From NCBI GenBank assembly GCA_028386065.3, contig JAKUCV010007341.1, positions 5,548 through 69,547 of the forward strand: a stretch of 64,000 bases of DNA, read 5' to 3'. The DNA is from Turnera subulata (Eukaryota; Streptophyta; Magnoliopsida; Malpighiales; Passifloraceae). A program made the position numbers and the translations under genes. The notes under the pieces were generated by a model. It had not been told where the DNA came from. It ran no database searches and saw only the letters and a program-made list of their open reading frames with translations. This document shows positions 5,305 to 60,222 of the stretch, one piece after another; the first letter of the stretch is position 1; every line of letters starts with the position of its first letter.

Positions 5305-6602
5305 GAAACGGACGCACTACCCGATTCTGGTTGGATAAATGGTCTCCAAGCGGGCCTCTGCGGTGGTTGAGTCTCCTTCCAATCCTAGTTGATAAATTGG
5401 AGGACATAGTGAGTGAGTTCTGTAGGCCCAATGGAACCTGGAACTGGAGCCGATTTGCACATTTACTGCCTGAGGTGGCTATACAAGAAATTGAAGCAAT
5501 CTGCCTCCTAACTATAACAAAGGGACAGATCAAGTTTGTTGGTCCTCTTCGACGAATGGAAGATTTACAACCAAATCAGCATATGAGAGTCTTGAAGAAG
5601 ATTCATGGCCAGTCACCGAAAAAGCATGGGACTTGTTATGGAAATGGAGAGGCCCAAATAGGTATAAAAGCTTTATTTGGCTGTTGTATTAGGATAAACT
5701 GCTCTCAAATCTTAATCGAGCAAAACGAGGGATGATAGATGATACAAGCTGCCCTCGATGTAGGCAGCAACAAGAGTCCCTTCTTCACATCATGAGGGAG
5801 TGCCCATTAGCGGTCAGCCTATGGATTTCTCTCCAAGGCTCTATTCGCTTCACGGATTTTCACTGCAACAACATCCAGACTTTGGTGATGACGAACTTAA
5901 AAACGGGGTTAAGCACAGATGATGGACTGGACTGGTCGACACTCTTTGTAATTGCTTGTAACTCGTTGTGGCTTTGGCGCAACGAGTTTATCTTCTCTGA
6001 ACAACCAAAGCGAATTGTTTTGTGCAAGGCAAAGGAAATACTCTGGGTGGAATGTCAAGACCCGCTTAAACCATTTTCGGAGGAACACACAGGTCCCAAA
6101 CTTGTATATTGGAAGCCCCCACCAGCGAACATGGTCAAAATCAACTCTGACAGAGCTGTGGATCCTAGAACTAAACATGCTGCTGTTGGGGGGATTATAA
6201 GAGGAGCAAATGGGAAATGGATTGGAGGATTTGTTAATAATGTGGGCATCTGCTCTGTTGTTCATGCAGAACTTTGGGGGCTTAAAACCTCCATGGAATT
6301 GGCTTGGGAGTTGGGATTCAGAAAGTTAGTGGCTGAAGTGGATTCGCAGGTCATTGTGGACATGATCAATGCAGAGGAGGAAAGCCAAGGATACATGCCT
6401 GCCTTGGCCCTGATTACTAAGACATTAATTCAGCAAGATTGGGAAGTTATTTTGCAGCACACGCATAGGTAGGCAAATCACTATGTTGACGCTCTAGCAG
6501 CTTTAGCTTTTTCTTTTGACAGAGGGGTCACCATCTTAAACAACCCTCCTGACTCTCTTTTGATACATCTACAGATGGATGTACAGGGGAACTCCTTCCC
6601 TA
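5265..6602 (+). pseudogene. LINE ORF2 tail: zf-RVT and RNase H domains
   Basis: The region joins three frames. 5732-5830 holds the zinc-binding zf-RVT motif (CPRCRQQQESLLHIMRECP). From about 6120 a plant-type RNase H follows: NSDRAV for the first Asp, HAELWGL for the Glu and EVDSQ for the next Asp. A stop at 6470 cuts the last helix, which is still readable beyond it (ANHYVDALAALAF). A short 3' UTR and an A-run close the element. Confidence 0.75.
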
Positions 6603-38055: not shown

Positions 38056-40235
38056 GTAGGTACGAAGTTCACCGTGGTGACAACGGGTCGTTGGCTTTAG
38101 GTAGGTTTGCATGCTGATCACTCGTCAAGGGTTGATGTGGAAAGAAAGCTAAGTCATCAGTGCATGAACGAATAAAACAAATTTTCTTTTTACAAATGAC
38201 AATCACATTTTTCTTTTTTATCTTCTCGGTATTTTGGTCTGATATGGCATTATATGCATATGCACCAGTTACTCCATATTGTGCCAATACCTACATGTAC
38301 ATGGGTACGCTGGCTGAATGCTATAATTATGAAGATTGGATTTTTTTATATATATGTATATATATATAGGTTCCAAATCTGGATGAATTTCTTATTCTAT
38401 GGTTTTTGTTTTCAGCGAGACGCTGATATACGTAGGAATTATAATAGTCATGGTTCTTATAACCATTGACTACGAATATTCAAAGTCGCAAAAATTCAAG
38501 ATAAAAAAATAGAAACTTTTTAAAGCATATTAATCAATATATCAGCAGATTCCTAAAATGTGACAAGTGCTTTTACTTATATATCCTTCTAAAAATTTCT
38601 ATATTACAATTGACATGTAAATAATTTAATCGTAATGGTTTCACCCACACTGCTGCTGTAGTGCTCTGTTGTATTATGACTCAAATTGGAAACATAGGTA
38701 CAACCCACTTACCATGTTGATGGACTTGATGAATCCAAAACAACAGAAAGTTTATGTTCGGCCTCTTACTGTTCGGTCCCAGAGGGTAAGCCGACACCAA
38801 AGTCTTATGAAGCATTTGATGAGTTGGGTAACGTTCTGACATGGCAGCCCAAATCTTTTAATACCAGAAGAAGTTGTATGTATCCTTAAATAGCAGTTAG
38901 CGCTTAGCACCAACGCCTATTGAACAATAATAGCCTTCTTAGTTACCAGAGAAACAATAATAGCATTCTAGAACAAGAGAGTATTATTTAATACAAGATT
39001 ATTTCCGACATAATTTTGTCATGATAGAACTCCATTAACTTTCTAATCATCTTTCTTTCCTTTTGTTGTATGGATTGAGTATCCTCCTGGTATTATACTC
39101 AGGGAACTCAATTTAGACTGTACTTAACATCGTATGTGAATAAAGCGTCATTTTCAATCAAAAAAAAATTCCACCTCTATTGTTAACCTCTTCGTCAAGT
39201 CCTCTCTGCCTCTGGTTTCACAATGGAACAGCTCTTCCCAGAGAAACAATAATAGCATTCTAGAACAAGAGAGTATTATTTAATACAAGATTATTTCCGA
39301 CATAATCTTATCATGATAGAACTCCATTAACTTTCTAATCATCTTTCTTTCCTTTTGCAACCGTTACTTTGGAAGGATCCAGAAAGCATTAAAGGATAGG
39401 CGCACTATGACTTAGTTTTCAAATATTGTGGGTATGACTCAATAAATCCCTCCACTTATCCCAAGAGACACTACCTACTACTTTAAAAAACATGAGAGAC
39501 AGACACTGACCAATCTACTAATCAACCAAGACAAAGACTATCTTTTGGGTCATCCTACTTCTATACAGGTCCGTATTTTGGACAACCTTGAATTAAAATC
39601 CTTGGTTTTATTTCTTCAAGTTACTTCTTTCTCCAAAATTTGGGAAAAAAAAACTTTTTTGGTTTTTTTTCCAAATCATCTTCCTATCTGTGTGTGTATT
39701 TTCAATTTTTTTGGTCAATTTCTGTGTATATATATTCGTTTGCAGTCACTACTAACTATGCTTATTCTTTAAAGAAAGAATACTAAATTTACTACATAAT
39801 TTGTTTGGTTTTTATTTTTTATAGGTTGGAAAGCTAAGATATTGCAGAAGAGATATCCAAGGTGAGTTTTGTATGTTAACCTTTTTAGTTTGAGTTTCTC
39901 TCAGCCCAAAATTTTGTTTCTGAATAGAGTAAAAACATAAAAAGACCCTCTTTAGATCGGAAGATAAAGAATTAGAGAGTTTGAGGTTGAACTTTTGATG
40001 CAAATCTTTTATAATGTCACTGTTTAATAGCAATCTTTATATTTTTAGTTTTTTCTATAGAATAAAAGTATATGAGGGTCAGAATGCTTATTAAATTATG
40101 GTTGCAAAATCAGCCGTGTAATCAGGCTTTCTTAGGTTATTAAATTTCTTTGCTTCCAAGCTTCTATTCTTTCAATCTTTATGCTGAAGTGTATGATTTT
40201 CTTTGCTAAAATTTTTTCAATTCCAGCCTCTCTAT
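38056..40235. other. Unassigned sequence left of the nested LTR elements
   Basis: Apart from a direct repeat (annotated separately) no gene or element is recognised. 39090-39175 resembles a LINE 3' tail ending in an A-run. Short exon-like pieces near 39570-39610 and 39824-39862 have splice-like borders, and this sequence continues beyond the LTR insertion at 57387, so it may be the other half of the Helitron-derived locus. Confidence 0.4.
38946..39358 (+). repeat. Direct repeat of about 120 bp flanking a LINE-tail-like segment
   Basis: 38946-39067 and 39238-39358 are nearly identical. Both contain GAGAGTATTATTTAATACAA. Between them is a non-coding segment with an A-run (39162-39170). Confidence 0.85.
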
Positions 40236-40240
40236 GAGCT

Positions 40241-42682
40241 TGAAACGCCCCGCCCCGTATTTACTGTACACAGTAAACACGTGCCGGAACTGTGACAACC
40301 CAACCCAACAAAGCCCGACGGACTGCGTATAAAACAATAAACTGGCCAACGGCCCAATATCAAAAACTGTAAACCGGCTCTTCGGCCCAACATAGAACTC
40401 GTCACCCGAACCCCGGGGACATCAACAACAACCAACTGGCCCAAAGGCCCAAATACAACATATACTCAGCAGAAGATTTAACAATATGCACAGCGGAAGA
40501 CTCTTAACTCACATGACAACATATGCAAAGCCCAATGCAACTAATGGATCCGAGACCTGTCCGAGGGTACGCATCAGCTTGCCCGGTACGTTCCTGCACT
40601 ACAAACAACTCATCCTACGGGATGAAACCCCGCAGGCGAGGGGTGAGTCCGAAGCGCTCACCGACGAAAGATAAACAGTGATATATTCAACCATAATACT
40701 TTCGAAATAAACACAATAATCACAACAATAAGCAAAAACAATCACATCACAAGGATACTGCCATAACAACCAACACATACTTCACGACAGAGGAATCCAA
40801 CTCAAACAACACATCAGAGAAAACCAACACGAACAACACGATAGAGGAATCCTACTAAATCATATCAGGCCAAGACCAAGTGAATACTCAATAATTTTTA
40901 TTACCAATTTTAACTTCCGGCCCTGTCACTGGACAAGCTAGGGTCGTACCAGGTTATCAATTAATTCCGAATGCCAGGTCAAAGAACCATACCAAATCTT
41001 ACCATACCGGGACCACGTCCCAAATTACCAAATCACATCGGGTTCAACAACCCAAATACCAACCGGGATCAACATCCCAAAACCGGATATTCGGTATATC
41101 CGAACCACTGGGTATTTGGTATACCCCAACCACAGGCATCAACATGCCAACCGGATATTCGGTATATCCGAACCACTGGGTATTTGGTATACCCCAACCA
41201 CAGGCAACAAGCCAAACGGATATTCGGTATATCCGAACCACTGGGTATTTGGTATACCCTAACCACAGGCAACAACATGCCAACCAAATCAAGTAACCAA
41301 ACCAAGTAACCGACCATAGCATCCCAGAATTAATTTTCAAACCATCGGGTCGTACCACTACTTCCCACATATATCATCATATCATATCAACTCCAATTTC
41401 CACTTTCTACTTTCCAATTTCCATTTCTCAATTATCCACAGTCAATAATTTATTCCAATTATCTAATCACAACACTGTCTACCGACAACAATCACAATTT
41501 CCATAACAGTCAAACAATTATCCAACTTCCTATTAGCTCAAGTTATACAACTGACCATTCCATCAACAGTTTCATAACATCAACTACTCACAGTCCAACA
41601 TCAATCACAACACAGTACCCAATAAACCAATAACAGTCATACAACGGTTCAATCAAGCAAACCAACATCTTAGCAACAACAGCAACAATAACCGTAGCAG
41701 CCAAGTAACCAACACAATTCCATATTGCCAAATATCCATCAACAATACATGTAACACCAATTAATCACAATTAACAGTTCATCACAATATCCACACGACC
41801 AATAGCACAGTCCAACAACAGCAACATCAATAACCATAATAGTCAAATATCCAACAATGACCCTCTCAGTAGTTCATTCAAACACACACAACTATCCACA
41901 TTGACCAGTTCATCAATATTCTCAACACAATATACACAAGTCTATCACAATCCAACAACAGCATCGATAATTCCACCGCAATCAGGTAACAGTCAATAAT
42001 TATTCCAACAGAACAATCTAGCAGCAAGATACGCAAACAAAGAAGCACACACAGCATTACGGCACATATCAAGGTTTATCTATCCTCACCTTGGCCGATT
42101 ACTCAACTCCGAAAATAATGACCGGTACGACGCCGGCTCCTCGGGAAACTGCCCGATATCCAAACCTATACAACAAAACCACATATATTCACATAAATAC
42201 ACATAAGAGTATGTCATGATGCCAATTTTACGAAATAAACCCATCCCGGTTACTCATCTTTTATTATTATCTTTTGCAGAAAATATTTACCGTACGTATT
42301 TCCGAATATAATTTCGGTACCATACTTTAATTAAAACTCTTTTAAAAACATTCTCATAAATTAATTATATTTTTCCCAAAATAGTAATTACCATAATTTT
42401 CTGGAAAATATAACATATGTATACATAGATATTTCCAAGATATCATATTTAATAAAACTATTTACCATATTATAATTACTAAATATTTTTATATTAGGAA
42501 AACTATATTCCAGAAAAATTAGTCATATGAAACTACTTCCTAAAACTAAATTCGTATTAATAAATATACCCATATACATTTTCCCAAAGACAAAATATTT
42601 TTTTCCCAAACCATTATAATATCGAAATATTATCCAAGTATATATTTTTTTTCCAAAGGTAATCAGTTACCATTTTTTTTTT
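40241..42682 (-). repeat. Element A left LTR, outer part
   Basis: It contains the terminal dyad TTTACTGTACACAGTAAA (40260-40277), a long A/C-rich zone and the hairpin array, then an AT-rich zone. It continues at 52380 after the inserted element B. Confidence 0.9.
41009..41290. repeat. Covarying hairpin array in element A
   Basis: Consecutive short hairpins all keep complementary arms although their sequences differ: GGGAC/GTCCC (41009-41021), GGGTT/AACCC (41040-41053), GGGAT/ATCCC (41065-41078), GGATAT/ATATCC (41085-41101), GGGTAT/ATACCC (41110-41126) and GGCAT/ATGCC (41135-41148). The last three types are then repeated on a unit of about 65 bp to 41290. Loops are mostly CAAC or YNGGT. Confidence 0.9.
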
Positions 42683-45600
42683 TGAGACGCCCCGACCCGT
42701 ATTTACCGTATACAGTAAACACGTGCCGGAACTGTGACAACCCAGCCCAACAAGGCCTAGCATACAGTGTATAAAGCATAACCTTGGCTCAACAGCCCAA
42801 AAGTATAAACTACAATATGGCCCTACGGCCCAACATCAACAACATCAATAAAAACGAAACTGGCCCAATGGCCCAACAACATTAACAATATGCACAGCGG
42901 AAGACTTAAACTCACTAACACTGTATGCGACACATGCAATCGATGGATCCAAGCCTGTCCAAGGGAAACATCGCAGCCTGTCTGGAATGCACTAAGCCTG
43001 TACATGAAACAACTCATCCTGCGGGATGAAACCCCGCAGGCGAGGGGTGAGTCCGAAACGCTCACCGACGAAAGATAAACAGTGATATATTCAACCATAA
43101 CACTTTCGAAGTAAACCCAACAATCACAACAATAAGCACAAACAATCACATCACAAGGATACTACCATAACAACTGACACATACTACACGACAGAGGAAT
43201 CCAACTCAAACAACACATCAGAGGAAACTCACTAAATCATATCTAAGCCATGACCATCTATACTGACTATACCATACACTAGTTCCCGATCAGGACACTT
43301 CAACTCTACCACATGAAGGGTAACCGACCCAGTCTCAACAGACTATACTACACACACTCTGGTCCTGACAGACTATACTCAACTAAGGTTCCTCATCGTA
43401 TGTTGACTTACCGCTACTATGCTTGCTGATCATCCAACCCGGTACCAAAACAATCTCAACATCTCGTGAGCCTCGCTCACCGGGTAGCCGGCAACCAGCA
43501 CGGACCATACCCAATCAACATCACAAACCGGTCCCCGGGTAGAATCACAACACAACACGGCAACAGCAGTCACCACAACAACTAGTAACCACAACATCAA
43601 CAATACTCAATATCTGATCAAAACGACAGGAGATACTCATCCAACAATTATCAAAAGAAGCCAACAAGCAAAGGACAACTGGCAACCGATGCCCACGACA
43701 ATGGACTACTCACAACCAACGACAATAATTAACACCCGTAAACTGGCAACCTATGCCGACCACGGTCAACCGACTAAACTGAGGACTGACAACATCCAAG
43801 GGAATAATCAAGAGACATCATGCAAATGAACATATCACATCATAGCCCAATAAGCAAAAGCACATTTCAAACAACACTGAGTCAAGACCAAAAGAATATT
43901 TATTATTATTTCCAATTTTAACCTTCGGGCCCGTCACTGGACAAGCTAGGGTCGTACCTGGTTATTAACTAATTCTGGATGCCAGGCCCCACCATAATCC
44001 GGGATCAACATCCCCATATCTCAAATCCGGGATCAACATCCCAATATCTCAAATCCGGGGTCAACACCCCAATATTACAAATCCGGGATCAACATCCCAA
44101 TACCATAAATCCGGGGTCAACACCCCAACCAACAAACCCTCTGGCAAGACACCACAGAACTAGTCTCTAACCATCTAGTCGTACCACTACTTTCCAAGTG
44201 ACAATTATATCATCTCAATTCAATTCCAATTCTCATTCCAATTTCCGTTATCCTTTTCCCAATTATCCACAATCAATAATCCAACATCATTCTCAACACA
44301 TCATCCAAGAATCAATATCACAATCCAGACAACAATTTCATATCACCAAACTTTCACATCAAACAATTCAACAATAACAAACCGTTCAACAATATTTCCA
44401 ACACGACATACACAGGACTAACACGTTTCTACAACAGCATCAACAATACCATAGCAATCATGTAACAGTCAACAATCATTCCAGCAGATCAAACAAACAA
44501 CAAACCACAAAACTACACACACAGCATTACGGGCACATATCAGGGTTTATCCATCCTCACCTTGGCCGATTATTCAACTCCGGAAATACTGACCGGTACG
44601 ACGCCGGCTCCTCGGGAAACTGTCCGATATCAAACCTATACACAAAGCAATGTACACACATATAAATGCACATAATCGGTATACTATGATGCCAATACTA
44701 CGAATTAATCCCATCCCGATTACTTATCCTTTATTTCCATCTTTTACCAAAAACAATTTACCGTACGTATATCCGAATATAATTTCGGTACCATACTTTA
44801 ATTAAAACTCTTTTCAAATATTTTTCATAAATTAATTATACTTTTTCCAAAATATAATTACCATAACATGATTTTTCTGAAAATACAATATATACTTATG
44901 CTCCCAAAGTATTTGTAGAATGTATCCTTTTCTAAAATAGTTACCATATAGTAATTTGCAAATGTTATTATTCATATTATAATTACCTTGGTTTCTTGAA
45001 ATATAACAAAATAATTACTTCATTTACTTTCACAAAATTACCATATATTTATATTTCCCAGAATAAATAATCCATATCCCCTTTCCATAATGTTAGATAG
45101 AATAATTATTACCATCACATATATTCTTTTCCAAAGGAAATAATTATGATAAAATAATATTTCTAGAAATTAAATACATATATATTTACATATGTATGTA
45201 TACTAGAAAGTATTTAACCAAATTTTCCAAATATAATTATAAATCCATTACTGATTACTATTATTATTTTTTATTTTTTTATTATTTTTATAAACTGGGT
45301 TGGGCCATAAATAGTGCTGGACCAGGTCTTGCACAGTACCCAGCCCAGACCCAGCCAGCCCAAACCACAAACCGGCCCAGAATAATTAGCCCACACTCAC
45401 CCTGCCCATGACCCGTTCGACTCAGCCCATACCCAGATGTAATCGGGTCAGCACCACACGGATCCGGGTAGCTACCCGGGTCGTCCAACCCGTTCCACAC
45501 CAAACTCGACGGTGCTGGCTCGGGCGCAGCAGCTGCAAGGCGAGGTCGGCGTGGCTGTTGTCGTGTGCAGGCGAGGAGGCGACGGCAGTAGGTGGGTCGT

Positions 45601-46289
45601 GGCGGCGTCGCTGTGCTGCAAGCGTCGACGGAGGAGGGCGGCGAGCCAAAGAGGAGAGGATAGCCCCGTCGGGTTTCCAGCCAAGCGCGGCGCGTCTGGC
45701 GGCGAAATCGAGCGGCGACGGTTGCGTCTGGTTGGCGACGGCACGGGGGTGCGATGGTGAGGGTGGTGCCGGTCGTGGTGGAGGTGGTGGCGGTGAGGTG
45801 AAGGTGGCCGGCGGCGGTGCTCCTTCCCTTCTCTTGTTTCTTTTTTTTTTCCACTCTTTTCTTTCTTTCTCTCTTATTTTTCTTTTTCTCTCCATTTTTC
45901 TCTCTTCTCTTTTTTTTTTTTTCTTCTGCTCTCCTCCTCTCTTCTACTGGCTTTAAACTGGTTTCTTTTTTTTATTTAATTTTTTATTGTTTTACTATTA
46001 AGCATGTGAACATCAAATAATATAAATCGTCCGTATTACGGGCGAATCCGATCCGGACCAGAAAATAACCGATACCTCCTTAGTTATTTTCCGGTGTGAT
46101 TTTCCGAGAAATTTCGAAACTCGAAAAATACCAACTTAGGTTCGAAAAATCCACGAGAAAACACTCGGATTCGAAAAACGACTCCCGATTTACCTTGAAC
46201 TAATTACCCAAGATTAATTCAACAGTAAATCACGGTAAAACGACTTTTACAGTCCGGTAAAAATCAAAAATTTTACCCGGGCTATTACA
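42683..46289 (-). repeat. Element B left LTR (3' LTR in element orientation)
   Basis: The ends are TGAGACGCCCC and GGGCTATTACA as read on plus. It contains the hairpin array at 44001-44126, an AT-rich zone (44700-45290) and a GC-rich zone (45450-45830). The long frames in the GC-rich zone are compositional. Confidence 0.93.
44001..44126. repeat. Hairpin array, five units on an exact 28-bp period
   Basis: The units start at 44001, 44029, 44057, 44085 and 44113. Each is GGGAT-CAAC-ATCCC or GGGGT-CAAC-ACCCC. Both arms change together, so the stem is kept. The spacer is CAATATCTCAAATCC-like. Confidence 0.95.
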
Positions 46290-46302
46290 GTCTACCCACC
46301 TT
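46290..46302 (-). other. Polypurine tract of element B
   Basis: On the minus strand AAGGTGGGTAGAC lies directly before the LTR start TGTAATAGCCC. The matching tract in element A is AAGGGGGTAGAA (53680-53691). It fixes the orientation of the family. The opposite edge (CGCAACCAAAA before 48758) is not purine-rich. Confidence 0.75.
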
Positions 46303-46475
46303 AAAAAGAATTTCGTCCCCGAAATTCCGTCTTATCTGTGGGTCCTACCACGATAAGATTCTGGCACACTCTGCCGGATGTCCAAAATCAACACGAGATA
46401 CCGCTTATACCCTTAAGCGACATCTCATCAGCTTACAAATACCAAACCTCACAGCTGAGGCATTCACTCTCAGCC

Positions 46476-46853
46476 ATGGACTCTCCACTTCGTTCTCGAA
46501 CGACTTCAGACTCCGAGAACAACAGCTACATCGGCGGCACAGCTTTCCCAACAAGCTCCGATGAAGAGCCTCCGAAGAAGCGGTTCAAGTCCAACATCAT
46601 CGGTCTGGAGGAGCACATGGTGGTCTCCCCAAAGCGACGGAAGAAGCGTGCCGGCAAGAAAGCTGAGGACAGGAAGGGCAAGGCGGTAGCTGAAAGCAGC
46701 ACACCGCAGCAGAAGTTGACGCAGCTGAACGTCTCCCTGAGGAAGGTCAGCTCGGCGGTGGCACAGATCGAACTGGCGTGCATGGAGCTCTTCCCGCACT
46801 TAAGGAATGTTCAACAGCTTGTAAAAGATCTTGAGAAGCAAGTAGCTCCTTAG
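46476..46853 (+). CDS. Antisense ORF1 of element B: basic nuclear-type coiled-coil protein, 125 aa
   Basis: Not a family I recognise. The ATG sits in a strong plant context (GCCATGG) and is shared with the copy in element A. The N-terminal 50 residues are Ser/Thr-rich. Two basic nuclear-localisation-like patches follow (PPKKRFK and PKRRKKRAGKK). The last 50 residues (QQKLTQLNVSLRKVSSAVAQ onward) are heptad-like and likely helical or coiled coil. It lies antisense to the retroelement. A polyadenylation word AATAAA is 38 bp after the stop (46891-46896). Compared with the A copy (53865-54242), about 17 base changes are silent and 8, in 7 codons, are replacing and mostly conservative. A nuclear binding protein is inference. 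Confidence 0.7.
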   Translation: MDSPLRSRTTSDSENNSYIGGTAFPTSSDEEPPKKRFKSNIIGLEEHMVVSPKRRKKRAGKKAEDRKGKAVAESSTPQQKLTQLNVSLRKVSSAVAQIELACMELFPHLRNVQQLVKDLEKQVAP

Positions 46854-47583
46854 AGCACTTCTTCTCTGTTGTAACACCTTTATTAAAATAAATAAAATGA
46901 GTTTCCTTTTTAAATCAAAATTCTCTTATGTTAAGAAATCTTATGTCAAATGGAAAAATAAAACGTCTCAAGGTAAAACAAAAATCAATAATAAGAATAT
47001 AAAATCAAATTTAAAGAAATTTAAAAAAAAAACTCGTTTAACAAAATCGAACAAAAAGAAATTAAACTAAATATGTTTCATGAACGGTGTTCGTATCGGA
47101 CGTGAACATCCTCGAATCACGAAACGTTCCGTACAACTAACGGTGACGTCGGTTAACCTCGTGAAAAAATACCCGTTAACTCGGAAGGCGATGTTCACGG
47201 GATCATCCTGTGTCCCTCGAAGGAAACGATACCCACTTGTTCACATTTTCCGCATAAGACAAAACGTCTGTCAAGGCTCGTATCTCTCCACGATGTCCGA
47301 ACAGCTGTGAGCTTGTCGCACATGCGCTCTACTCGAAATACGGCCCCATCCGTCTGGCCTCAACGGTCACGGATGCAAGTGATAAAAGATGCAAGAAAAT
47401 ATAGAAAGACCATAACAAGAAAAGACAAGGTAGCCAGAGCGAAAGAAAATCATGAGTTAGGAAAAGCCTGAAAAACTCTGGCATGGGTCCGAAAAACGCG
47501 TAAAGCAATAAATGCAAGCAATGGTAAAATACAAAAGGCAAGATCTTGAAAATCAAAAACGGTAATCACGCTTCCTATAAGAG

Positions 47584-47591
47584 TATAAAAG
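47584..47591 (+). promoter_or_regulatory. TATA box before antisense ORF2 (element B)
   Basis: TATAAAAG lies 114 bp upstream of the ORF2 ATG and is conserved at 54972-54979 in element A. A TGACGTCGG word (bZIP-type core) lies further up near 47143-47151 and is also conserved. Confidence 0.6.
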
Positions 47592-47697
47592 AGTGAGCGG
47601 TGATGAGTAAATTATTAAAAGCATTAAAAGCAACAAACACTCAAGCAAACAAAACCACAAAACTCCGAAAAACCAAACACAAACACGTCCCAACACA

Positions 47698-48381
47698 ATG
47701 CCTGCTCCTTCATCCGTCTTCTTCGTCGAAGGTGCCAATCTTGGCAGAAGGAACCGACTGGCTTACAGCATGGTCAACGAACGTGCTGAGGAGCTGCCGA
47801 ACGAGCTCGGCAGAATGCCACGTCTAGTCTTCGTCGACGAACTCTATTCGTCACGATTCTTCGTCACTCCCATGGAAGAGGTATTCTACCTAGAGGACCA
47901 TGGGACACTTAGGACTTCCTACTACGGCTCAGCAAACTCCGTGATGTTCTTCATCTCGGATAGGCTTCAAGAATTCAACCTGGAGTCCACTTGCCAGACT
48001 GTGGAGCAAGGTGCTTACTACCAGCTCGCAATGACAGCCCAGAGCATACCCAGAATGACTCGGCTACCTCCAACCTGGCCAAAGGTACGTCTGCTGGTGT
48101 GGAACTGCAGAGGAGTTGCAAGACGTGCACAGGAATTCTCACGCACTCTGAGGGACCTGAAGAACCAGTACAAGCCCAACATGGTTCTTCTGACGGAGAC
48201 GCAGTGGCAACCACGGGACGACCACGGTCTGATTCCACTCCGATTCCCTCAAGCTAACCGGTTCGAGATTCCTGGCCAGCACGACAGAGGCGGCATGTGG
48301 TTCTCCTGGAGCGACAGGGTCACGGTCAACGTCAACAGTGACGCAAACAGTTTCCGTGTCAACGTCGTTGCAAACCGTTGA
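47698..48381 (+). CDS. Antisense ORF2 of element B: novel N-terminal domain fused to a half EEP nuclease fold, 227 aa
   Basis: Residues 1-125 form a domain I do not recognise (FFVEGANLGRRNRLAYSM, FVDELYSSRFFVTPMEEV). From residue about 130 the protein resembles the first half of a LINE-type endonuclease: VRLLVWNCRG, then KPNMVLLTETQ for the conserved Glu, then GGMWFSWSDRVTVNV. The LINE at 2533-3324 has the same motifs in the same order. The second half of the fold, with the GDFN and SDH catalytic motifs, is absent, so nuclease activity is unlikely. A splice-like fusion of a captured LINE piece is inferred. In element A the first 197 codons are shared, with about 29 silent and only 5 or so replacing codon changes. 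The start is fixed by this conservation. Confidence 0.7.
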   Translation: MPAPSSVFFVEGANLGRRNRLAYSMVNERAEELPNELGRMPRLVFVDELYSSRFFVTPMEEVFYLEDHGTLRTSYYGSANSVMFFISDRLQEFNLESTCQTVEQGAYYQLAMTAQSIPRMTRLPPTWPKVRLLVWNCRGVARRAQEFSRTLRDLKNQYKPNMVLLTETQWQPRDDHGLIPLRFPQANRFEIPGQHDRGGMWFSWSDRVTVNVNSDANSFRVNVVANR

Positions 48382-48757
48382 ATGTATTTCTGTTTTTATA
48401 ATTTATCAAAAATCAATGTATTATTTCCCTTTTTATTAAATATAAAATATCCATGTAATATTTCCCTTTTTATAAATATAAAATATCAATGTACCATTTC
48501 CCTTTGCAATCAAAATAATTTTTTTTCCCTTTATCTCGAAATATCGGTATTATCAATAATATTTGTATTTTCGCATATTATGGCATCATTTACCTCATAT
48601 GTGTATGTTCCGCGACAGCTGGCGTCCCTCGACTGGATCCATAATGCACTTAACTAAAATGTTATAAAATAATAAACAACTGGAGCGAACTATGCAAGCA
48701 AGACAACAACACACATAGACTGCCCGACAAGACCTAACGCCCGCGCCGCAACCAAAA
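48382..48757. other. Element B internal end with possible primer-binding site
   Basis: AT-rich sequence follows ORF2. The last 20 bp, on the minus strand, read TTTTGGTTGCGGCGCGG next to the LTR end, a degenerate match to the initiator-Met primer site. No coding potential seen. Confidence 0.5.
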
Positions 48758-51700
48758 TGAGACGCCCCGACCCGTATTTACCGTATACAGTAAACACGTG
48801 CCGGAACTGTGACAACCCAGCCCAACAAGGCCTAGCATACAGTGTATAAAGCATAACCCTGGCTCAACAGCCCAAAAGTATAAACTACAATATGGCCCTA
48901 CGGCCCAACATCAACAACATCAATAAAAACGAAACTGGCCCAATGGCCCAACAACATTAACAATATGCACAGCGGAAGACTTAAACTCACTAACACTGTA
49001 TGCGACACATGCAATTGATGGATCCAAGCCTGTCCAAGGGAAACACCGCAGCCTGTCTGGAATGCACTAAGCCTGTACATGAAACAACTCATCCTGCGGG
49101 ATGAAACCCCGCAGGCGAGGGGTGAGTCCGAAACGCTCACCGACGAAAGATAAACAGTGATATATTCAACCATAACACTTTCGAAGTAAACCCAACAATC
49201 ACAACAATAAGCACAAACAATCACATCACAAGGATACTACCATAACAACTGACACATACTACACGACAGAGGAATCCAACTCAAACAACACATCAGAGGA
49301 AACTCACTAAATCATATCTAAGCCATGACCATCTATACTGACTATACCATACACTAGTTCCCGATCAGGACACTTCAACTCTACCACATGAAGGGTAACC
49401 GACCCAGTCTCAACAGACTATACTACACACACTCTGGTCCTGACAGACTATACTCAACTAAGGTTCCTCATCGTATGTTGACTTACCGCTACTATGCTTG
49501 CTGATCATCCAACCCGGTACCAAAACAATCTCAACATCTCGTGAGCCTCGCTCACCGGGTAGCCGGCAACCAGCACGGACCATACCCAATCAACATCACA
49601 AACCGGTCCCCGGGTAGAATCACAACACAACACGGCAACAGCAGTCACCACAACAACTAGTAACCACAACATCAACAATACTCAATATCTGATCAAAACG
49701 ACAGGAGATACTCATCCAACAATTATCAAAAGAAGCCAACAAGCAAAGGACAACTGGCAACCGGTGCCCACGACAATGGACTACTCACAACCAACGACAA
49801 TAATTAACACCCGTAAACTGGCAACCTATGCCGACCACGGTCAACCGACTAAACTGAGGACTGACAACATCCAAGGGAATAATCAAGAGACATCATGCAA
49901 ATGAACATATCACATCATAGCCCAATAAGCAAAAGCACATTTCAAACAACACTGAGTCAAGACCAAAAGAATATTTATTATTATTTCCAATTTTAACCTC
50001 CGGGCCCGTCACTGGACAAGCTAGGGTCGTACCTGGTTATTAACTAATTCTGGATGCCAGGCCCCACCACAATCCGGGATCAACATCCCCATATCTCAAA
50101 TCCGGGATCAACATCCCAATATCTCAAATCCGGGGTCAACACCCCAATATCACAAATCCGGGATCAACATCCCAATATCACAAATCCGGGGTCAACACCC
50201 CAACCAACAAACCCTCTGGCAAGACACCACAGAACTAGTCTCTAACCATCTAGTCGTACCACTACTTTCCAAGTGACAATTATATCATCTCAATTCAATT
50301 CCAATTCTCATTCCAATTTCCGTTATCCTTTTCCCAATTATCCACAATCAATAATCCAACATCATTCTCAACACATCATCCAAGAATCAACATCACAATC
50401 CAGACAACAATTTCATATCACCAAACTTTCACATCAAACAATTCAACAATAACAAACCGTTCAACAATATTTCCAACACGACATACACAGGACTAACACG
50501 TTTCTACAACAGCATCAACAATACCATAGCAATCATGTAACAGTCAACAATCATTCCAGCAGATCAAACAAACAACAAACCACAAAACTACACACAGCAT
50601 TACGGGCACATATCAGGGTTTATCCATCCTGACCTTGGCCGATTATTCAACTCCGGAAATACTGACCGGTACGACGCCGGCTCCTCGGGAAACTGTCCGA
50701 TATCAAACCTATACACAAAGCAATGTACACACACATAAATGCACATAATCGGTATACTATGATGCCAATACTACGAATTAATCCCATCCCGAATACTTAT
50801 CCTTTATTTCCATCTTTTACCAAAAACAATTTATCGTACGTATATCCGAATATAATTTCGGTACCATACTTTAATTAAAACTCTTTTCAAATATTTTTCA
50901 TAAATTAATTATACTTTTTCCAAAATATAATTACCATAACATGATTTTTCTGAAAATACAATATATACTTATGCTCCCAAAGTATTTGTAGAATGTATCC
51001 TTTTCTAAAATAGTTACCATATAGTAATTTGCAAATGTTATAATTCATATTATAATTACCTTGGTTTCTTGAAATATAACAAAATAATTACTTCATTTAC
51101 TTTCACAAAATTACCATATATTTATATTTCCCAGAATAAATAATCCATATCCCCTTTCCATAATGTTAGATAGAATAATTATTACCATCACATATATTCT
51201 TTTCCAAAGGAAATAATTATGATGAAATAATATTTCTAGAAATTAAATACATATTTATTTACATATGTATATATACTAGAAAGTATTTAACCAAATTTTC
51301 CAAATATAATTATAAATCCATTACTGATTACTATTATTATTTTTTTATTTTTTTTATTTTTTTTATTTTTTTTATAAACTGGGTTGGGCCATAAATAGTG
51401 CTGGACCAGGTCTTGCACAGTATCCAGCCCAGACCCAGCCAGCCCAAACCACAAACCGGCCCAGAATAATTAGCCCACACTCACCCAGCCCATGACCCGT
51501 TCGACTCAGCCCATACCCAGATGTAATCGGGTCAGCACCACACGGATCCGGGTAGCTACCCGGGTCGTCCACCCCGCTCCACACCAAACTCGACGGTGCT
51601 GGCTCGGGCGCAGCAGCTGCAAGGCGAGGTCGGCGCGGCTGCTGTCGTGTGCAGGCCAGGAGGCGACGGCAGTAGGTGGGTCGTGGCGGCGTCGCTGTGC

Positions 51701-52374
51701 TGCAAGCGTCGACGGAGGAGGGCGGTGAGCCAAAGAGGAGAGGATAGCCCCGTCGGGTTTCCAGCCAAGCGCGGCGCGTCTGGCGGCGAAATCGAGCGGC
51801 GACGGCTGCGTCTGGTTGGCGACGGCACGGGGGTGCGATGGTGAGGGTGGTGGCGGTGAGGTGAAGGTGGCCGGCGGCGGTGCTCCTTCCCTTCTCTTGT
51901 TTCTTTTTTTTTTTTCCACTCTTTTCTTTCTTTCTCTCTTATTTTTCTTTTTCTCTCCATTTTTCTCTCTTCTCTTTTTCTTTTTTTTTCTTTTGCTCTC
52001 CTCCTCTCTTCTACCGGCTTTAAACTGGTTTCTATTTTTTTATTTATTTTTTTATTGTTTTACTATTAAGCATGTGAACATCAAATAATATAAATCGTCC
52101 GTATTACGGGCGAATCCGATCCGGACCAGAAAATAACCGATACCTCCTTAGTTATTTTCTGGTGTGATTTTTCGAGAAATTTCGAAACTCGGAAAATACC
52201 AACTTAGGTTCAAAAAATCCGCGGGAAAATCACGAGCGCGGGAAAACACTCGGATTCGAAAAACGACTCCCGATTTACCTTGAACTAATTACCCAAGATT
52301 AATTCAACAGTAAATCACGGTAAAACGACCTTTACAGTCCGGTAAAAATCAAAAATTTTACCCGGGCTGTTACA
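48758..52374 (-). repeat. Element B right LTR (5' LTR in element orientation)
   Basis: Nearly identical to 42683-46289. I count only scattered single-base differences, plus a few small indels such as in the T-run near 51340-51372. It has the same landmarks, including the hairpin array at 50076-50201. Confidence 0.93.
50076..50201. repeat. Hairpin array of element B right LTR
   Basis: Five 28-bp units with the same alternation of GGGAT and GGGGT stems as 44001-44126. The spacers differ from the left LTR at two or three bases, while all stems stay complementary. Confidence 0.93.
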
Positions 52375-52379
52375 TTTTT

Positions 52380-53679
52380 CCTAGGGTGATAATATTCCAG
52401 AAAAAAATAGATTTCCATAATATATTCGGAAATATATCAGTTTATGTGTATTATGTATATATATATATTCCATTTTATTATTAATTTTATTATCAAGTTA
52501 TTAAGCAGACTGGGCATGAACAATGGACTATTCAAGCCCATGCCCAAGCCAAAGTTTCGGCCCAACACCCAGCCCTCACACATAACCCACAAACACTATC
52601 CCACAAATCACAGCCCAAAATCTAGCCCAAACCACAACCCATAAACCCAGCCCACGACCCATACCTACCCAAACGATAAACCCAAAGCCCCATTAATCTC
52701 ACAGCCTATAACTTATGCCCAAGCCCAAAATCAACACAAAACCCATCTCAAAAGCCCACACGACCGTCATCTTCAACCTTTGAACTCACCGTGGCAAGGT
52801 GGGTTGCAGGCGGCTGGGCACCGACGAAGCGGCAGCTGGACGGCAGCATCAGCGGGAGAGGAGGGTGGAGGTGCTGGTGGCGGGTCATGGTGGTGTCGCG
52901 AAGGAGAAGGAAGAGCGGGCGGACCCGGCGGCAGCTCGCGGGTCGTATTGCGTCGGCTGCGTCGTGCGGTGCTGCGACTGCGTCGGGGAGGAGGAGAAGG
53001 AGATGCAGGCGACGGTGGGGACGGTTGCAGTGGAAGGCTCGGCGGTGGACACGGGTGGAGGTGGTGGTCGGCTAGCTTCGTCAGGCGGCAGCGTCGATTG
53101 CTGCGTGTGACTCCGGCGGCAGCAGGGGGAAAAAAAAAAGAAGAAGGGAGCAGGGGAGAGGAGGGGAGGAGCTGGCGGCGCGCTGGCTGTGAGGAGGAAG
53201 GAAGGGGATGGAACGGGTTGTTTTATTTTTCTCTGGTTTGTGCCTTGGTGTTGTTGTTTTTTTTTTGCTGGAAGGTGAAGATTGAGAGAATGATTGCAGG
53301 CAGAAATTAAGAAGATCACAGGTGAGCATCACGGGTTACACAGGAAATGAACACTGGTAGCACAGAAAAAGTAGACGCTGCCCTGCATAATTGAGGCGGC
53401 TCCATTATGCAGGGCCGTGTCCAAATCGGACCAGAAATTAATCGATACCCCGTAGTTATTTTCCGGTGTGATTTTCCGAGAAATTCCGAAACCCGAAAAA
53501 TACCAACTTAGTCCCGAAAAATCAACGGAAAAATCGCGAGCGCGGGAAAACTCTCGGTTTCGAAAAACGACTCCCGTTTTACCGTGAATTAATTACCCAA
53601 GATTAATTCAACAGTAAATCACGGTAAAACAATTTCTACAGTCCCGGTAAAAATCCAAAATTTTACCCGAGCTGTTACA
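52380..53679 (-). repeat. Element A left LTR, inner part
   Basis: Continues 42682 across the inserted element B. It has an AT-rich start, a GC-rich patch (52780-53220) and the terminal hairpin, and ends GAGCTGTTACA. Confidence 0.9.
53381..53414. repeat. Perfect 11-bp hairpin near LTR end (element A left LTR)
   Basis: The arms CCCTGCATAAT (53381-53391) and ATTATGCAGGG (53404-53414) flank a 12-nt loop. The stem is present in the other LTR at 57083-57116, and in related form at 17828-17859 and 62035-62056. Confidence 0.9.
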
Positions 53680-53822
53680 TTCTACCCCCTTAAAAAGAAT
53701 TTCGTCCCCGAAATTCCGTCTTCTCCGTGGGTCCTACCACGATAAGCTTCTGGCACACTCTGCCAGGTATCCAAACTCAACATGAGATACCGCTTATACC
53801 CTTAAGCGACATCTCATCCGCT

Positions 53823-53830
53823 TATAAATA
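53823..53830 (+). promoter_or_regulatory. TATA box before antisense ORF1 (element A)
   Basis: TATAAATA lies 42 bp before the ATG. In element B the same place reads TACAAATA, so the box is weakened there. Confidence 0.55.
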
Positions 53831-53864
53831 CCGAACCTCATAGCTGAGACATTCACTCTCAGCC

Positions 53865-54242
53865 ATGGACTCTCCACTTCGTTCTCGAACGACCTCAGAC
53901 TCCGAGAACAACAGCTACATCGGTGGCACGGCTTTCCCGACAAGCTCCAATGAAGAGCCTCCAAAGAAACGGTTCAAGACCAACATCATCGGTCTGGAGG
54001 AGCACATGGTGGTCTCCCCAAAGCGACGGAGGAAGCGTGCCGGCAAGAAAGCTGAAGACAAGAAAGGCAAAGCGATAGCTGAAAGCAGCACACCGCAGCA
54101 GAAGTTGACGCAGCTGAACGTCTCGTTGAGGAAGATCAGCTCGGCAGTGGCACAAATTGAACTGGCGTGCGCGGAGCTCTTCCCGCACTTAAGGAACGTT
54201 CAACAACTTGTAAAAGACCTTGAGAAGCAAGTAGCTCCTTAG
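53865..54242 (+). CDS. Antisense ORF1 of element A, 125 aa
   Basis: Same length and start as the B copy at 46476-46853, and no frameshift or stop despite about 6-7 percent nucleotide divergence. The replaced residues are mostly mild (Asp/Asn, Ser/Thr, Lys/Arg twice, Val/Ile twice) plus one Met/Ala. Both basic patches and the C-terminal heptad region are kept. A polyadenylation word AATAAA is at 54284-54289. The function is unknown. The open frame in an older, otherwise damaged element supports real constraint on the family. Confidence 0.7.
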   Translation: MDSPLRSRTTSDSENNSYIGGTAFPTSSNEEPPKKRFKTNIIGLEEHMVVSPKRRRKRAGKKAEDKKGKAIAESSTPQQKLTQLNVSLRKISSAVAQIELACAELFPHLRNVQQLVKDLEKQVAP

Positions 54243-54971
54243 AGCACTTCTTCTCTGTTGTAACACCTTTATGAAATAGATAAAATAAATTTCCTTTTTA
54301 AATCGAAATTCTCTTGTGTTAAGAAATCTTGTGTTAAATAGGAAAACAAAACATGTCAAGGCAGATTAAAAATCAACCATAAGATTATAAAATCAAATAT
54401 AAAGAAATCAAAAATTAAAACTCAGTTAACAAAATCAAAACAGAAAGAAATTAAAACAAAACATGTTCCCATGAACGGTGTTCGTATCGGACGTGAACAT
54501 CCTCGAATCACGAAACGTACCGTACAACTAACGGTGACGTCGGTTAACCTCGTGAAAAAGATACCCGTTAACTCGGAAGGCGATGATCACGGGCACGTCC
54601 TGTGTCCCTCGAAAGACACGTTACCCACTTGTTCACAATTTTCGCATAAGCCAAAACGTCTGTCAAGGCTCGTATCTCTCCACGATGTCCGAACAGCTGT
54701 GAGCTTGTCGCACATGCGCTTTACTCGAGATACAGCCCCATCCGTCTAGCCTCAACGGTCACGGATGCTTGTGATAAAAGATGTAAGAAAAATAATGACA
54801 CCATCAAAAGAAACGCCAAGGTAGCCAGGGCATAAGAAATCGTGAGTCAGAAAAGAGCTGTAAAACACCGGCACAGTAGCCGAATACGCGCAAAGCATTA
54901 AGTAAAGCAACGGTAAAATTCAGAAACAAAATCTTGAAAATCAAAAACGGTAATCACGCTCCCCATAAGAG

Positions 54972-54979
54972 TATAAAAG
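54972..54979 (+). promoter_or_regulatory. TATA box before antisense ORF2 (element A)
   Basis: TATAAAAG lies 111 bp upstream of the ATG at 55083, in conserved surroundings (CCATAAGAG before it). Confidence 0.6.
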
Positions 54980-55082
54980 AAGGAGCGGTGAAGTGTAAAT
55001 CACCAAAAGCAATCAAGGCAACAAAACGCTAAAGCAAAAGAAAACACCACGTTCAAAACAAAACCCCACACGTCCAAACAAA

Positions 55083-55715
55083 ATGCCTGCTCCCTCGTCG
55101 GTGTTCTTTGTCGAAGGTGCCAATCTTGGCAGAAGGAACCGACTGGCTTACAGCATGGTCAACGAACGTGCTGAAGAGCTGCCGAACGAACTCGGCAGAA
55201 TGCCACGCCTGGTCTTTGTCGACGAGCTCTACTCGTCGCGGTTCTTCGTCACTCCAATGGAAGAGGTGTTCTTCCTAGAGGACCATGGGACACTGAGGAC
55301 TTCATACTACGGCTCAACAAACTCCGTGATGTTCTTCATCTCGGATAGGCTTCAAGAGTTCAACCTGGAGTCCACTTGCCAAACTGTGGAGCAAGGCGCT
55401 TACTACCAGTTCGCAATGACAGCCCAGAGCATACCCAGAATGACTCGGCTACCTCCAACCTGGCCAAAGGTACGGCTACTGGTGTGGAACTGCAGAGGAG
55501 TGGCAAGGCATGCACAGGAATTCTCACGTACTTTGAGGGACTTGAAGAACCAGTACAAGCCCAACATGGTTCTTCTGACAGAGACGCAGTGGCAACCACG
55601 GGACGATCACGGTCTGATTCCACTCCGATTCCCTCAAGCTAACCGGTTCGAGATTCCTGGCCAGAGAGACAGAGGCGGCATGTGTATACATATTTCGGTA
55701 CCATACTTTAATTAA
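55083..55715 (+). pseudogene. Antisense ORF2 of element A, C-terminus replaced by LTR sequence
   Basis: The first 197 codons match ORF2 of element B. After GGM the frame runs into LTR sequence at about 55685, because a deletion fused the internal domain to the middle of the LTR, and it stops after some 13 foreign residues. The half-EEP region therefore loses its last strand (FSWSDRVTVNV). The unknown N-terminal domain and WNCRG remain. Confidence 0.7.
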
Positions 55716-57381
55716 AACTCTTTTAAAAACATTCTCATAAATTAATTATATTTTTCCCAAAATAGTAATTACCATAATTTTCTGGAAAATATAACATATG
55801 TATACATAGATATTTCCAAGATATCATATTTAATAAAACTATTTACCATATTATAATTACTAAATATTTTTATATTAAGAAAACTATATTCCAGAAAAAT
55901 TAGTCATACGAAACTACTTCCTAAAACTAAATTCGAATTAATAGATATACCCATATACATTTTCCCAAAGACAAAATATTTTTTTCCCAAACCATTATAA
56001 TATCGAAATATTATCCAAGTATATATTTTTTTCCAAAGGTAATCAGTTACCATTTTTTTTTTCCTAGGGTGATAATATTCCAGAAAAAAATAGATTTCCA
56101 TAATATATTCAGAAATATATCAGTTTATGTGTATTATGTATATATATATATATTCCATTTTATTATTAATTTTATTATCAAGTTATTAAGCAGACTGGGC
56201 ATGAACAGTGGACTATTCAAGCCCATGCCCAAGCCAAAGTTTCGGCCCAACACCCAGCCCACACACATAACCCACAAACATTATCCCACAAATCACAGCC
56301 CAAAATCAAGCCCAAACCACAACCCATAAACCCAGCCCACGACCCATACCTACCCAATCCATAAACCCAAAGCCCCATTAATCTCACAACCCATAACTTA
56401 TGCCCAAGCCCAAAATCAACACAAAACCCATCTCAAAAGCCCACACGACCGTCATCTTCAACCTTTGAACTCACCGTGGCAAGGTGGGTTGCAGGCGGCT
56501 GGGCACCGGCGAAGCGGCAGCTGGACGGCAACATCAGCGGGAGAGGAGGGTGGCGGTGCTGGTGGCGGGTCACGGTGGTGTCGCGAAGGAGAAGGAAGAG
56601 CGGGCGGACCCGGCGGCGGCTCGCGGGTCGTATTGCGTCGGCTGCGTCGTGCGGTGTTGCGACTGCGTCGGGGAGGAGAAGAGGGAGGAGGAGAAGGAGA
56701 TGCAGGCGACGGTGGGGACGGTTGCAGTGGAAGGCTCGGCGGTGGACACGGGTGGAGGTGGTGGTCGGCTAGCTTCGTCAGGCGGCGGCGTCGATTGCTG
56801 CGTGTGACTCCGGCGGCAGCAGGGGAAAAAAAAAAAAGAAGAAGGGAGCAGGGGAGAGGAGGGGAGGAGCTGGCGACGCGCTGGCTGTCAGGAGGAAGGA
56901 AGGGGATGGAACGGGTTGTTTTATTTTTCTCTGGTTTGTGCCTTGGTGTTGTTGTTTTTTTTTTTTTTGCTGGAAGGTGAAGATTGAGAGAATGATTGCA
57001 GGCAGAAATTAAGAAGATCACAGGTGAGCATCACGGGTTACACAGGAAATGAACACAGGTAGCACAGAAAAAGTAGACGCCGCCCTGCATAATTGAGGCG
57101 GCTCCATTATGCAGGGCTGTGTCCAAATCGGACCAGAAATTAATCGATACCCCGTAGTTATTTTCCGGTGTGATTTTCCGAGAAATTCCGAAACCCGAAA
57201 AATACCAACTTAGTCCCGAAAAATCAACGGAAAAATCGCGAGCGCGGGAAAACTCTCGGTTTCGAAAAACGACTCCCGTTTTACCGTGAATTAATTACCC
57301 AAGATTAATTCAACAGTAAATCACGGTAAAACAATTTCTACAGTCCCGGTAAAAATCCAAAATTTTACCCGGGCTGTTACA
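55690..57381 (-). repeat. Element A right LTR, truncated by deletion
   Basis: It corresponds to 42308-42682 plus 52380-53679. The outer 2 kb of the LTR, including the hairpin array and terminal dyad, and the primer-site edge of the internal domain are gone. Similarity to the left LTR is high where both exist. The GC-rich patch here has a small insertion near 56680. Confidence 0.88.
57083..57116. repeat. Perfect 11-bp hairpin near LTR end (element A right LTR)
   Basis: Identical arms to 53381-53414. Confidence 0.9.
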
Positions 57382-57484
57382 GAGCTTAGAAATATTTGTT
57401 TTCCCAAAAATAAAATGGAGAAGGCACTTAGAAAATCCTCTCCAGATCTGTCAAGTTAATTACTGATTATTGTGATAATTTATT

Positions 57485-57946
57485 GGAGAAATATAGTGAA
57501 TAACTGAGAAATGAGAATAGTCTTTGGAAACTGAATATTTAATTGTTAGCACACTGTAAGGGTGTTATTACGAATCATTTCTACTTATATCTTAAATAAA
57601 AATGCATGCATTATTTTTCAGTAATTTTTTTTTGAACTTTGTATAGGTTACAAGGATAAAAGAATTGTATAGCTGAGCTTCATTGGTAAGTCTCTATGGT
57701 TTGTGATGATCTTTTGGAGAAATATAGTAAATAACTAAGAAATGAGAATAGTCTTTGGAAACTGAATATTTAATTGTTAGCACACTGTAAGGGTATTTTT
57801 ACGAATCATTTCTACTTATATCTTAAATAAAAATGCATGCATTATTTTTGAGTAATTTTTTTTTGAACTTTCTATAGGTTATAAGGATAAAAGAATTGTA
57901 TAGCTGAGCTTCATTGGTAAGATTCTATGGTTTTCAATTATAATGC
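57485..57946 (+). repeat. 231-bp tandem duplication including a small exon-like unit
   Basis: 57485-57715 and 57716-57946 are close copies. Each has a splice-like unit: a TATAG acceptor, then about 44 bases containing AAAAGAATTGTATAGCTGAG, then GGTAAG as donor. Confidence 0.85.
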
Positions 57947-58079
57947 GAATGCTTCAATTATTTTTTAAAATTATTTTGATAATTGAGAAATAATTAATTT
58001 TTCATTGCCAACCATATTTATGTTTTTAGATTGTTCTATTACAGCTGCTAATTATGTTTTATTTTTATGGTACAAGAAT

Positions 58080-59772: not shown

Positions 59773-60152
59773 TGAAGCGCCCCGACCCGTATTTACCTTA
59801 CAGGGTAAACACGTGCCGGAACTGTTCTTACTACTGTAGCAGACAGTTCATACAATGTGAAATACAATACAAGCAAACCTCAAATACAACATTCGTCACC
59901 CGATCCCGGGGACCTTATTCAAGCCAATACACTCTGAATTAATCCACAACAGATATAATACAGCAACAATAGCAAAAACACACTAGAAAGATAAGCAGCG
60001 GAAGACTAAAATGCAGATGCAGCGGTGTATGGATCCGGGTCAGGTGGAGAAGTAAGCAGCAGCCAACGAACATCGTACCTGAACTACGATCAACCAAACC
60101 TACGGGATGAAACCCCGCAGGCGAGGGGTGAGTCCGAAGCGCACTCAAATCC

Positions 60153-60222
60153 GGGGTCAACACCCCAATATCACAAATCCGGGATCAACATCCCAATATC
60201 ACAAATCCGGGGTCAATACCCC
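60153..60222. repeat. Hairpin array of the solo LTR, three units
   Basis: GGGGT-CAAC-ACCCC (60153-60166), GGGAT-CAAC-ATCCC (60181-60194) and GGGGT-CAAT-ACCCC (60209-60222), on a 28-bp period. Confidence 0.93.

Follow-up and report, generated by a model that had tools for sequence, protein, structure and literature searches.

Can a retrotransposon that has no gag-pol of its own still code for proteins that it needs? This question is raised by a 64,000-nucleotide stretch of DNA from Turnera subulata (contig JAKUCV010007341.1, positions 5,548 to 69,547 of the forward strand; hereafter the window), in which a long terminal repeat (LTR) element, element A (42683-52374), holds two open reading frames (ORFs), ORF1 and ORF2, that lie antisense to the element and recur in a second element, element B, whose left LTR hosts the nested element A. 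An initial annotation of the window had proposed that this cassette is constrained at the protein level. Across the best-matching copies of the genome the ratio of replacing to silent substitution rates (dN/dS) lies far below 1, not near 1, which bears the proposal out. What stands firm in this analysis, and is unusual, is that an element lacking gag-pol is constrained at the level of its codons. Very probably, this is an LTR element with chromovirus-like ends in which gag-pol is absent save for a remnant of the pol end, and which carries two antisense genes under purifying selection, each preceded by a TATA box. The overall explanation favoured below, which adds a role for the two proteins to this cassette, is given a probability of about 0.4.

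Selection was assessed across copies from the 518.7-Mb assembly (7125 contigs). A DNA search, in which the best 40 of 4904 candidates were scored, gave 42 ORF2 places together with A and B of the window; a search with the ORF2 protein had the best 150 of 8181 candidates scored, a set picked by score, and 30 loci including the window's A were fetched. ORF2 keeps an indel-free open frame of 227 codons in 36 of the 42 places (35 with ATG), is interrupted in five (L011, L013, L018, L044, and L047), and truncated in B, while a stop occurs in 7 of the best 150 protein matches. Where the ORF1 region is complete (30 copies), the frame is open in 28; the 12 other loci, whose fetched stretch contained ORF1 in part or not at all, are uncounted. 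In a simulation with point changes only, 10–14% neutral change leaves 4–9% of ORF2 frames open, against the 36 of 42 observed. Pairwise dN/dS, calculated by the Nei–Gojobori method, has a median of 0.045 for the 36 ORF2 copies (range 0.01–0.18; median dS 0.28, dN 0.012) and of 0.16 for the 28 ORF1 copies (range 0.05–0.38; median dS 0.57, dN 0.082). Both sets pooled (64 distinct ORF2 sequences of 66) give mean silent (pS) and replacing (pN) differences of 0.226 and 0.0082, with pN/pS at 0.036. By distance class this ratio falls from 0.10 for the closest ORF2 pairs to 0.04 for the farthest, a pattern that a small number of neutral changes after insertion would produce; for ORF1 it ranges from 0.15 to 0.26 without such a trend, being highest in the farthest class. 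Since dN/dS is far below 1 among copies, selection acts on both proteins, which are thus under purifying selection among the copies compared.

Within the window, a recount of the ORF1 changes between A and B returned exactly the numbers first reported (17 silent and 8 replacing), and as few replacing changes were obtained in 3 of 2000 random placements. For ORF2, the earlier figure of about 29 silent and 5 replacing codons is close to the 30.5 silent and 6.5 replacing changes found here (as few in 0 of 2000 placements), but only 200 codons are shared, because ORF2 of B is truncated. The claim that both elements carry both plus-strand ORFs therefore holds for A and for ORF1 of B, whereas in B a deletion reaching into the right LTR has removed the last 27 codons of ORF2, which meets the LTR behind codon 200, at about 55685. 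The two LTRs of A are identical at 3544 of 3584 ungapped aligned bases, i.e., they differ by 1.1%, compared with a median dS of 0.28 for ORF2, so that, at least for A, most of the change predates insertion. In six copies (L022, L029, L031, L032, L033, and L035) ORF1 is 72–75% like that of A and ORF2 97–98%; this much lower likeness of ORF1 suggests that ORF1 variants have been exchanged between element lineages. One locus, L009 (G000:C2472:61365-66178), has two abutting cassettes with both ORFs open in both; one match stops at 2469 and the next begins at 2470, with no LTR between.

Promoter-like and polyadenylation signals, which are signals in the sequence only, were counted in 28 aligned internal copies. 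The TATA box claimed for each ORF is found, as is the AATAAA claimed behind ORF1, each in 27 of the 28 rows; however, the decayed ORF1 box belongs to A and not, as first reported, to B, where it is intact (TATAAATA, 53823-53830), unless the names A and B were swapped in that report.

The earlier assignment of the element to the minus strand, with an antisense cassette, rested on a polypurine tract and was upheld. The minus-strand end of this tract is kept in all 27 of the 28 aligned copies that have letters there. Moreover, a genome search with a chromovirus integrase-end domain (best 150 of 3800 candidates scored; 20 of the 150 fetched, mostly for long open frames) led to L096, a locus with a 2312-aa open frame whose polypurine tract and LTR start are similar to the end of the element (75.5% over 94 bp, E 2.8e-9). 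With a minus-strand polypurine tract similar to the 3' end of a chromovirus of this genome, the element has the minus strand as its sense strand, and ORF1 and ORF2 are antisense. L096, which by its protein would be of Tekay type, is a relative and not the helper itself, and the other 19 fetched pol ends have no similarity to the end of the element. In its polypurine tract and pol-end sequence the element thus agrees with what a derivative of the putative Tekay-type lineage of L096 would have. Near the opposite end of the internal part, the putative primer binding site of A differs at two bases from that of most other copies. A 1307-aa open frame on C978 was considered as a full-length parent and rejected as an artefact, since in the L078 stretch an ordinary ORF2 of 227 aa directly follows 3081 N.

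The absence of gag-pol noted initially was confirmed: in a Pfam scan of two plus-strand and five minus-strand internal ORFs and eight LTR ORFs, no gag-pol domain was detected, and only the pol-end remnant is left. Six of the LTR ORFs have no Pfam domain, and of two further ones one has none and the other a weak, unrelated match to MatE (E 0.019). In 29 of the 30 fetched ORF2 loci of this genome the leader and the LTR start follow ORF2 in unchanged orientation, so that none of these 29 has the cassette in the sense direction of a different type of element, an arrangement that would have told against the initial proposal; the remaining locus, L068, has ORF1 and the spacer. ORF1 sequence lies upstream of ORF2 in 25 of the 30 loci (L069 has it in part only, and L060 begins at a contig end).

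Neither protein had been recognized at first, and for ORF1 and the first 128 residues of ORF2 this remains so, whereas the last part of ORF2 matches a long interspersed nuclear element (LINE)-type endonuclease. The Pfam family PF03372 matches ORF2 with E 0.016 for the whole protein and 0.0022 for the piece, and the NCBIfam endonuclease/exonuclease/phosphatase (EEP) family with E 0.017, all below the curated cut-offs. LINE pieces at 1011-6472 of the window (DUF4283, endonuclease, reverse transcriptase, and RNase H domains) served as a yardstick; against their endonuclease (2533-3321), ORF2 gives a BLASTP E of 3e-5, and the alignment score of 73, compared with a shuffled mean of 29.5, was reached in 0 of 2000 shuffles. 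The first EEP motifs (WNCRG, LLTET) are present in ORF2 and aligned with those of the LINE endonuclease. The match spans profile positions 2–84 of 225, short of a complete domain, and since it stops there, the later catalytic residues are missing from ORF2. Judged from its sequence, ORF2 joins a 128-aa part without a match to the opening third of an endonuclease of LINE type. For these first 128 residues, no convincing match was obtained among Pfam, solved structures, and the LINE proteins of the window. A protein database search with ORF2 gave 99 candidates, none at E <= 0.01; viral contigs gave no match, contigs of prokaryote genomes gave 33 pattern matches of which 0 were confirmed, and among solved structures no convincing match emerged, the best E values being 0.33 with the whole protein and 0.091 and 0.31 with its two parts.

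ORF1 is a basic protein, predicted with low confidence over residues 1-76 and as one helix over residues 77-123, mostly with a confidence score (pLDDT) >90. By our own reading, the basic clusters of its N-terminal part look like nuclear localization signals (NLS). A protein database search gave 8 candidates, none at E <= 0.01, and the comparison with the LINE proteins of the window gave no signal.

The LTRs of A and B contain tandem arrays of short dyads, which sit within about 0.8–1.5 kb of the plus-strand start of the LTR. Ten LTR stretches were read (the right LTR of A, the left LTR of B, 1500-base flanks of L002-L008, and 3800 bases of L078), and at least two dyads occur in eight of them, L007 having one of another kind and L008 none. 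Altogether, 38 perfect dyads around the loop pattern were found compared with 0.7 expected, a figure that overstates the surprise, because the units within an array share descent and the loop pattern was picked after the arrays had been viewed. Nine arm sequences occur, two of them outside arrays, with both arms changing together, and the motifs differ between A and B. Such dyad symmetry would fit a site bound by a dimer or an RNA hairpin.

The initial annotation had suggested that the cassette serves the element, perhaps in nuclear import, in defence against silencing, or in trans-mobilisation. The role proposed here builds on the parts described above. ORF1 and ORF2 would be read from their own promoters, and both proteins would act in or at the nucleus, as the NLS-like clusters of ORF1 may indicate; the long helix of ORF1 would be fit for pairing, and the catalytically incomplete endonuclease fragment of ORF2 might bind nucleic acid or a partner but not cut. 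A gene acting only in trans would be expected to be lost from a non-autonomous element, yet the dN/dS of ORF2 is about 0.045, which suggests that the copy making the protein gains from it. Both proteins may therefore aid their own element family, in cis or nearly so, most likely by keeping expressing copies transcribable through anti-silencing or activation as VANC proteins do, with the LTR dyad arrays as candidate binding sites and the copying enzymes coming from an autonomous chromovirus. VANDALs, the elements that carry VANC anti-silencing proteins, are DNA transposons. The parallel drawn here concerns the proposed mechanism only. In the available part of the report on Arabidopsis VANDAL elements (PMC5735166), VANC is carried by a transposable element and acts on transposable elements through motifs that are often tandemly repeated. 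The dyad arrays, the NLS-like ORF1, the requirement that the producing copy itself should profit, and the analogy with VANC together are why an anti-silencing role is put forward, tentatively and with the odds rather against it. Less likely still is the full version, in which gag-pol would have been replaced by an antisense two-protein counter-silencing system aimed at fast-changing LTR dyad arrays, with only the copying enzymes borrowed. If it were true, a non-autonomous element would be protein-coding and self-interested. The constraint itself suggests that a seemingly helpless parasite still produces proteins that it needs, and the many copies, two promoter-like sites, and candidate targets make the role of plant antisense ORFs directly testable.

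Several other explanations bear on the same observations. That dN/dS looks low only through recent bursts or through the choice of the best matches is suggested by the scoring of only the best 40 of 4904 and the best 150 of 8181 candidates; this is very improbable, given that the DNA-chosen set was not picked for openness, that silent distances between copies are large, and that bursts or gene conversion alone would not lower dN/dS. Similarly remote is selection on the nucleic acid, as antisense RNA or overlapping signals, with the open frames as a by-product. It could draw on the conserved leader near the primer binding site, on a minus-strand frame that for the A–B pair also has a dN/dS of 0.16 in each ORF despite 3 to 9 stops, and on a dip in silent diversity at ORF2 codons 76-135 (piS 0.123, the mean being 0.226; a value this low arose in 1 of 5000 random codon sets when codons were taken as independent). 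Nevertheless, the changes between A and B gather at third codon positions of the ORF frames, the spacer is rich in indels whereas the 36 open ORF2 copies have none, and six single-strand foldings of the dip, the leader, and the spacer on both strands gave z of only -1.69 to 0.61, which does not explain the dip. The codon pattern thus contradicts this explanation for the ORFs as a whole, although it may hold for the 180-base dip, which may be an overlapping signal on either strand.

A more serious competitor, doubtful though possible, is that the proteins serve the copying cycle itself and not silencing, for instance as an RNA-binding or pre-integration factor, with ORF2 as a partner in targeting or import. 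LINE ORF1p would be the model here, a basic, long-helix RNA-binding protein, which the basic ORF1 with its long C-terminal helix resembles, and the LINE-type fragment of ORF2 points the same way, although its match goes no further than position 84 of the 225 in the profile. Vicient and Casacuberta, in the part of their review available (PMC7264820), propose nuclear or accessory functions for antisense ORFs. Against this, the mRNA of an antisense ORF is not the packaged genome, so that a cis-preference would be hard to explain. Alternatively, the cassette may be a passenger whose two genes are favoured for their own sake or that of the host and are spread incidentally by the element, as their own TATA boxes and the AATAAA of ORF1 would allow; this is improbable, since no free-standing copy occurs among the 30 loci fetched from the best 150 matches, of which 29 have leader and LTR start and L068 ORF1 and spacer, and since many equally constrained copies would be unlike a host gene, although a free-standing gene might lie beyond these best matches in the genome. 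The favoured explanation, a constrained cassette acting for its own element family, also has points against it. The autonomous helper was not found among the 20 chromovirus ends fetched, of which only L096 matched (about 75% over 94 bases); no homologue was found for ORF1 or for the first 128 residues of ORF2; the fold prediction of ORF2 is unusable (mean pLDDT 29); the Pfam and NCBIfam endonuclease matches lie under their cut-offs; the expectation of 0.7 dyads flatters the arrays for the reasons given above; and two of the seven LTR flanks (L007, L008) have no such array in the 1500 bases read.

Comparison with known systems sets this element apart in part only. What antisense ORFs do in plant retrotransposons was left open by the 2020 review cited above, which in its available part describes conserved antisense ORFs (aORF-3R) in the LTR elements Grande, RIRE2, Retand, and PvRetro13, in line with the earlier remark that such ORFs occur in some Ty3/gypsy lineages, and reports for Grande a promoter of its own and a nuclear protein (PMC7264820). 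As in those elements, the ORFs here are antisense and kept in most copies of the best-match sets (36/42 and 28/30 open; 29/30 in element context). By the same source, aORF-3R lie between pol and the 3' LTR, whereas here there is no pol and two ORFs fill the internal part; their proteins are said there to resemble no other transposable element, whereas ORF2 has a LINE-type endonuclease fragment (PMC7264820). The TRP28 ORFs of Retand, according to the accessible text (PMC11963269), are likewise antisense and widely kept, with a proposed regulatory role and some non-autonomous clusters, but Retand belongs to a non-chromovirus lineage, and none of the Pfam matches obtained here is to the TRP28 domain (PF04195). 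Bdelloid rotifer LTR elements with a captured ORF3 also share enzyme-like ORFs with other retroelements; these are a DEDDy exonuclease and a GDSL esterase and no LINE endonuclease, and no significant departure from neutrality is reported in the portion consulted (PMC5408684). In the open-access literature, no description was found of a gag-pol-less chromovirus with antisense ORFs or with a LINE endonuclease piece. Neumann et al. took extra ORFs of at least 250 codons beside a polyprotein region, as far as the available text goes (PMC6317226). Such criteria would pass over the two ORFs described here, with 125 and 227 codons, in an element of this kind. Antisense extra ORFs are already known; the literature searched offered no counterpart of the gag-pol-less chromovirus setting, the gene pair, or the LINE-type fragment.

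Table 1. Features of elements A and B in the window (strand "." where none applies).
Feature	Position	Strand	Basis
ORF1 of A, 125 aa	46476..46853	+	Open in 28/30 copies with whole region; median dN/dS 0.16
ORF1 of B, intact	53865..54242	+	ORF list, A–B alignment
ORF2 of A, 227 aa	47698..48381	+	Full-length in 36/42 places; median dN/dS 0.045
ORF2 of B, cut after codon 200	55083..55684	+	Deletion into right LTR
ORF2 residues 132-210, first third of LINE-type endonuclease/exonuclease/phosphatase domain (putative)	48091..48327	+	Pfam, NCBIfam, BLASTP, shuffles
ORF2 codons 76-135, silent diversity dip	47923..48102	.	64 distinct copies
ORF1 TATA box, decayed in A (TACAAATA)	46434..46441	+	TATAAA in 27/28 rows, A the exception
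ORF2 TATA box (TATAAAAG)	47584..47591	+	TATAAA in 27/28 rows, L015 the exception
Two overlapping AATAAA behind ORF1	46887..46896	+	AATAAA in 27/28 rows, not L033
Polypurine tract, 3' end of internal part, chromovirus pol-end remnant; reads NFGDEILFKVGR	46290..46325	-	Sequence; 27/27 rows with letters; like L096 end
Putative primer binding site (TGG..., 3 bases inside the LTR)	48738..48754	-	Conserved stretch across copies
Element A LTR, 3' end of sense strand	42683..46289	-	97.5% identical to 48758-52374 (BLAST); TG...CA ends
Element A LTR, 5' end of sense strand	48758..52374	-	LTR–LTR comparison
Element B left LTR, first part (split by A)	40241..42682	-	BLAST and alignment
Element B left LTR, second part	52375..53679	-	BLAST and alignment
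Element B right LTR, remaining part	55685..57381	-	96.9% identical to left-LTR positions 2071-3747
Tandem dyad array, LTR of A, 28-bp period	43996..44128	.	GGGAT-CAAC-ATCCC and GGGGT-CAAC-ACCCC
Array of identical type, other LTR of A	50071..50203	.	28-bp period, dyad units
Tandem array of different dyads, LTR of B, 68-bp period	41068..41285	.	GGATAT-TCGGT-ATATCC and GGGTAT-TTGGT-ATACCC

Element A has LTRs of about 3.6 kb (3607 and 3617 bp) around an internal part of 2468 bp, and is flanked on both sides by a TTTTT target duplication inside a T run. Large retrotransposon derivatives (LARDs) have long LTRs and a short internal part without gag-pol, and are described as non-coding. Element A is LARD-like: two long LTRs with a target duplication and a short gag-pol-less internal part are common to both, whereas its internal part codes for two conserved proteins and holds the antisense cassette. 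Element B ends at 57381, has the target duplication GAGCT at 40236-40240 and 57382-57386, and lacks about 2070 bp of its right LTR. The LTRs of A and B are strongly diverged (2202 of 3237 aligned bases identical) compared with the mostly internal stretches 46054-48299 and 53427-55684, which are 89.5% identical by BLAST. No tRNA gene was found within the window, and Rfam gave a single match over 40000-58000, with E 0.54 and far under its gathering score. The LTRs also contain G+C-rich, ORF-bearing stretches at 45408-45953 in A and 52780-53307 in B, which differ from each other and have no Pfam match. Finally, short pieces at 60144-60631 are 82–97% like the LTR of A, its array included, and are perhaps the remnant of a further copy.

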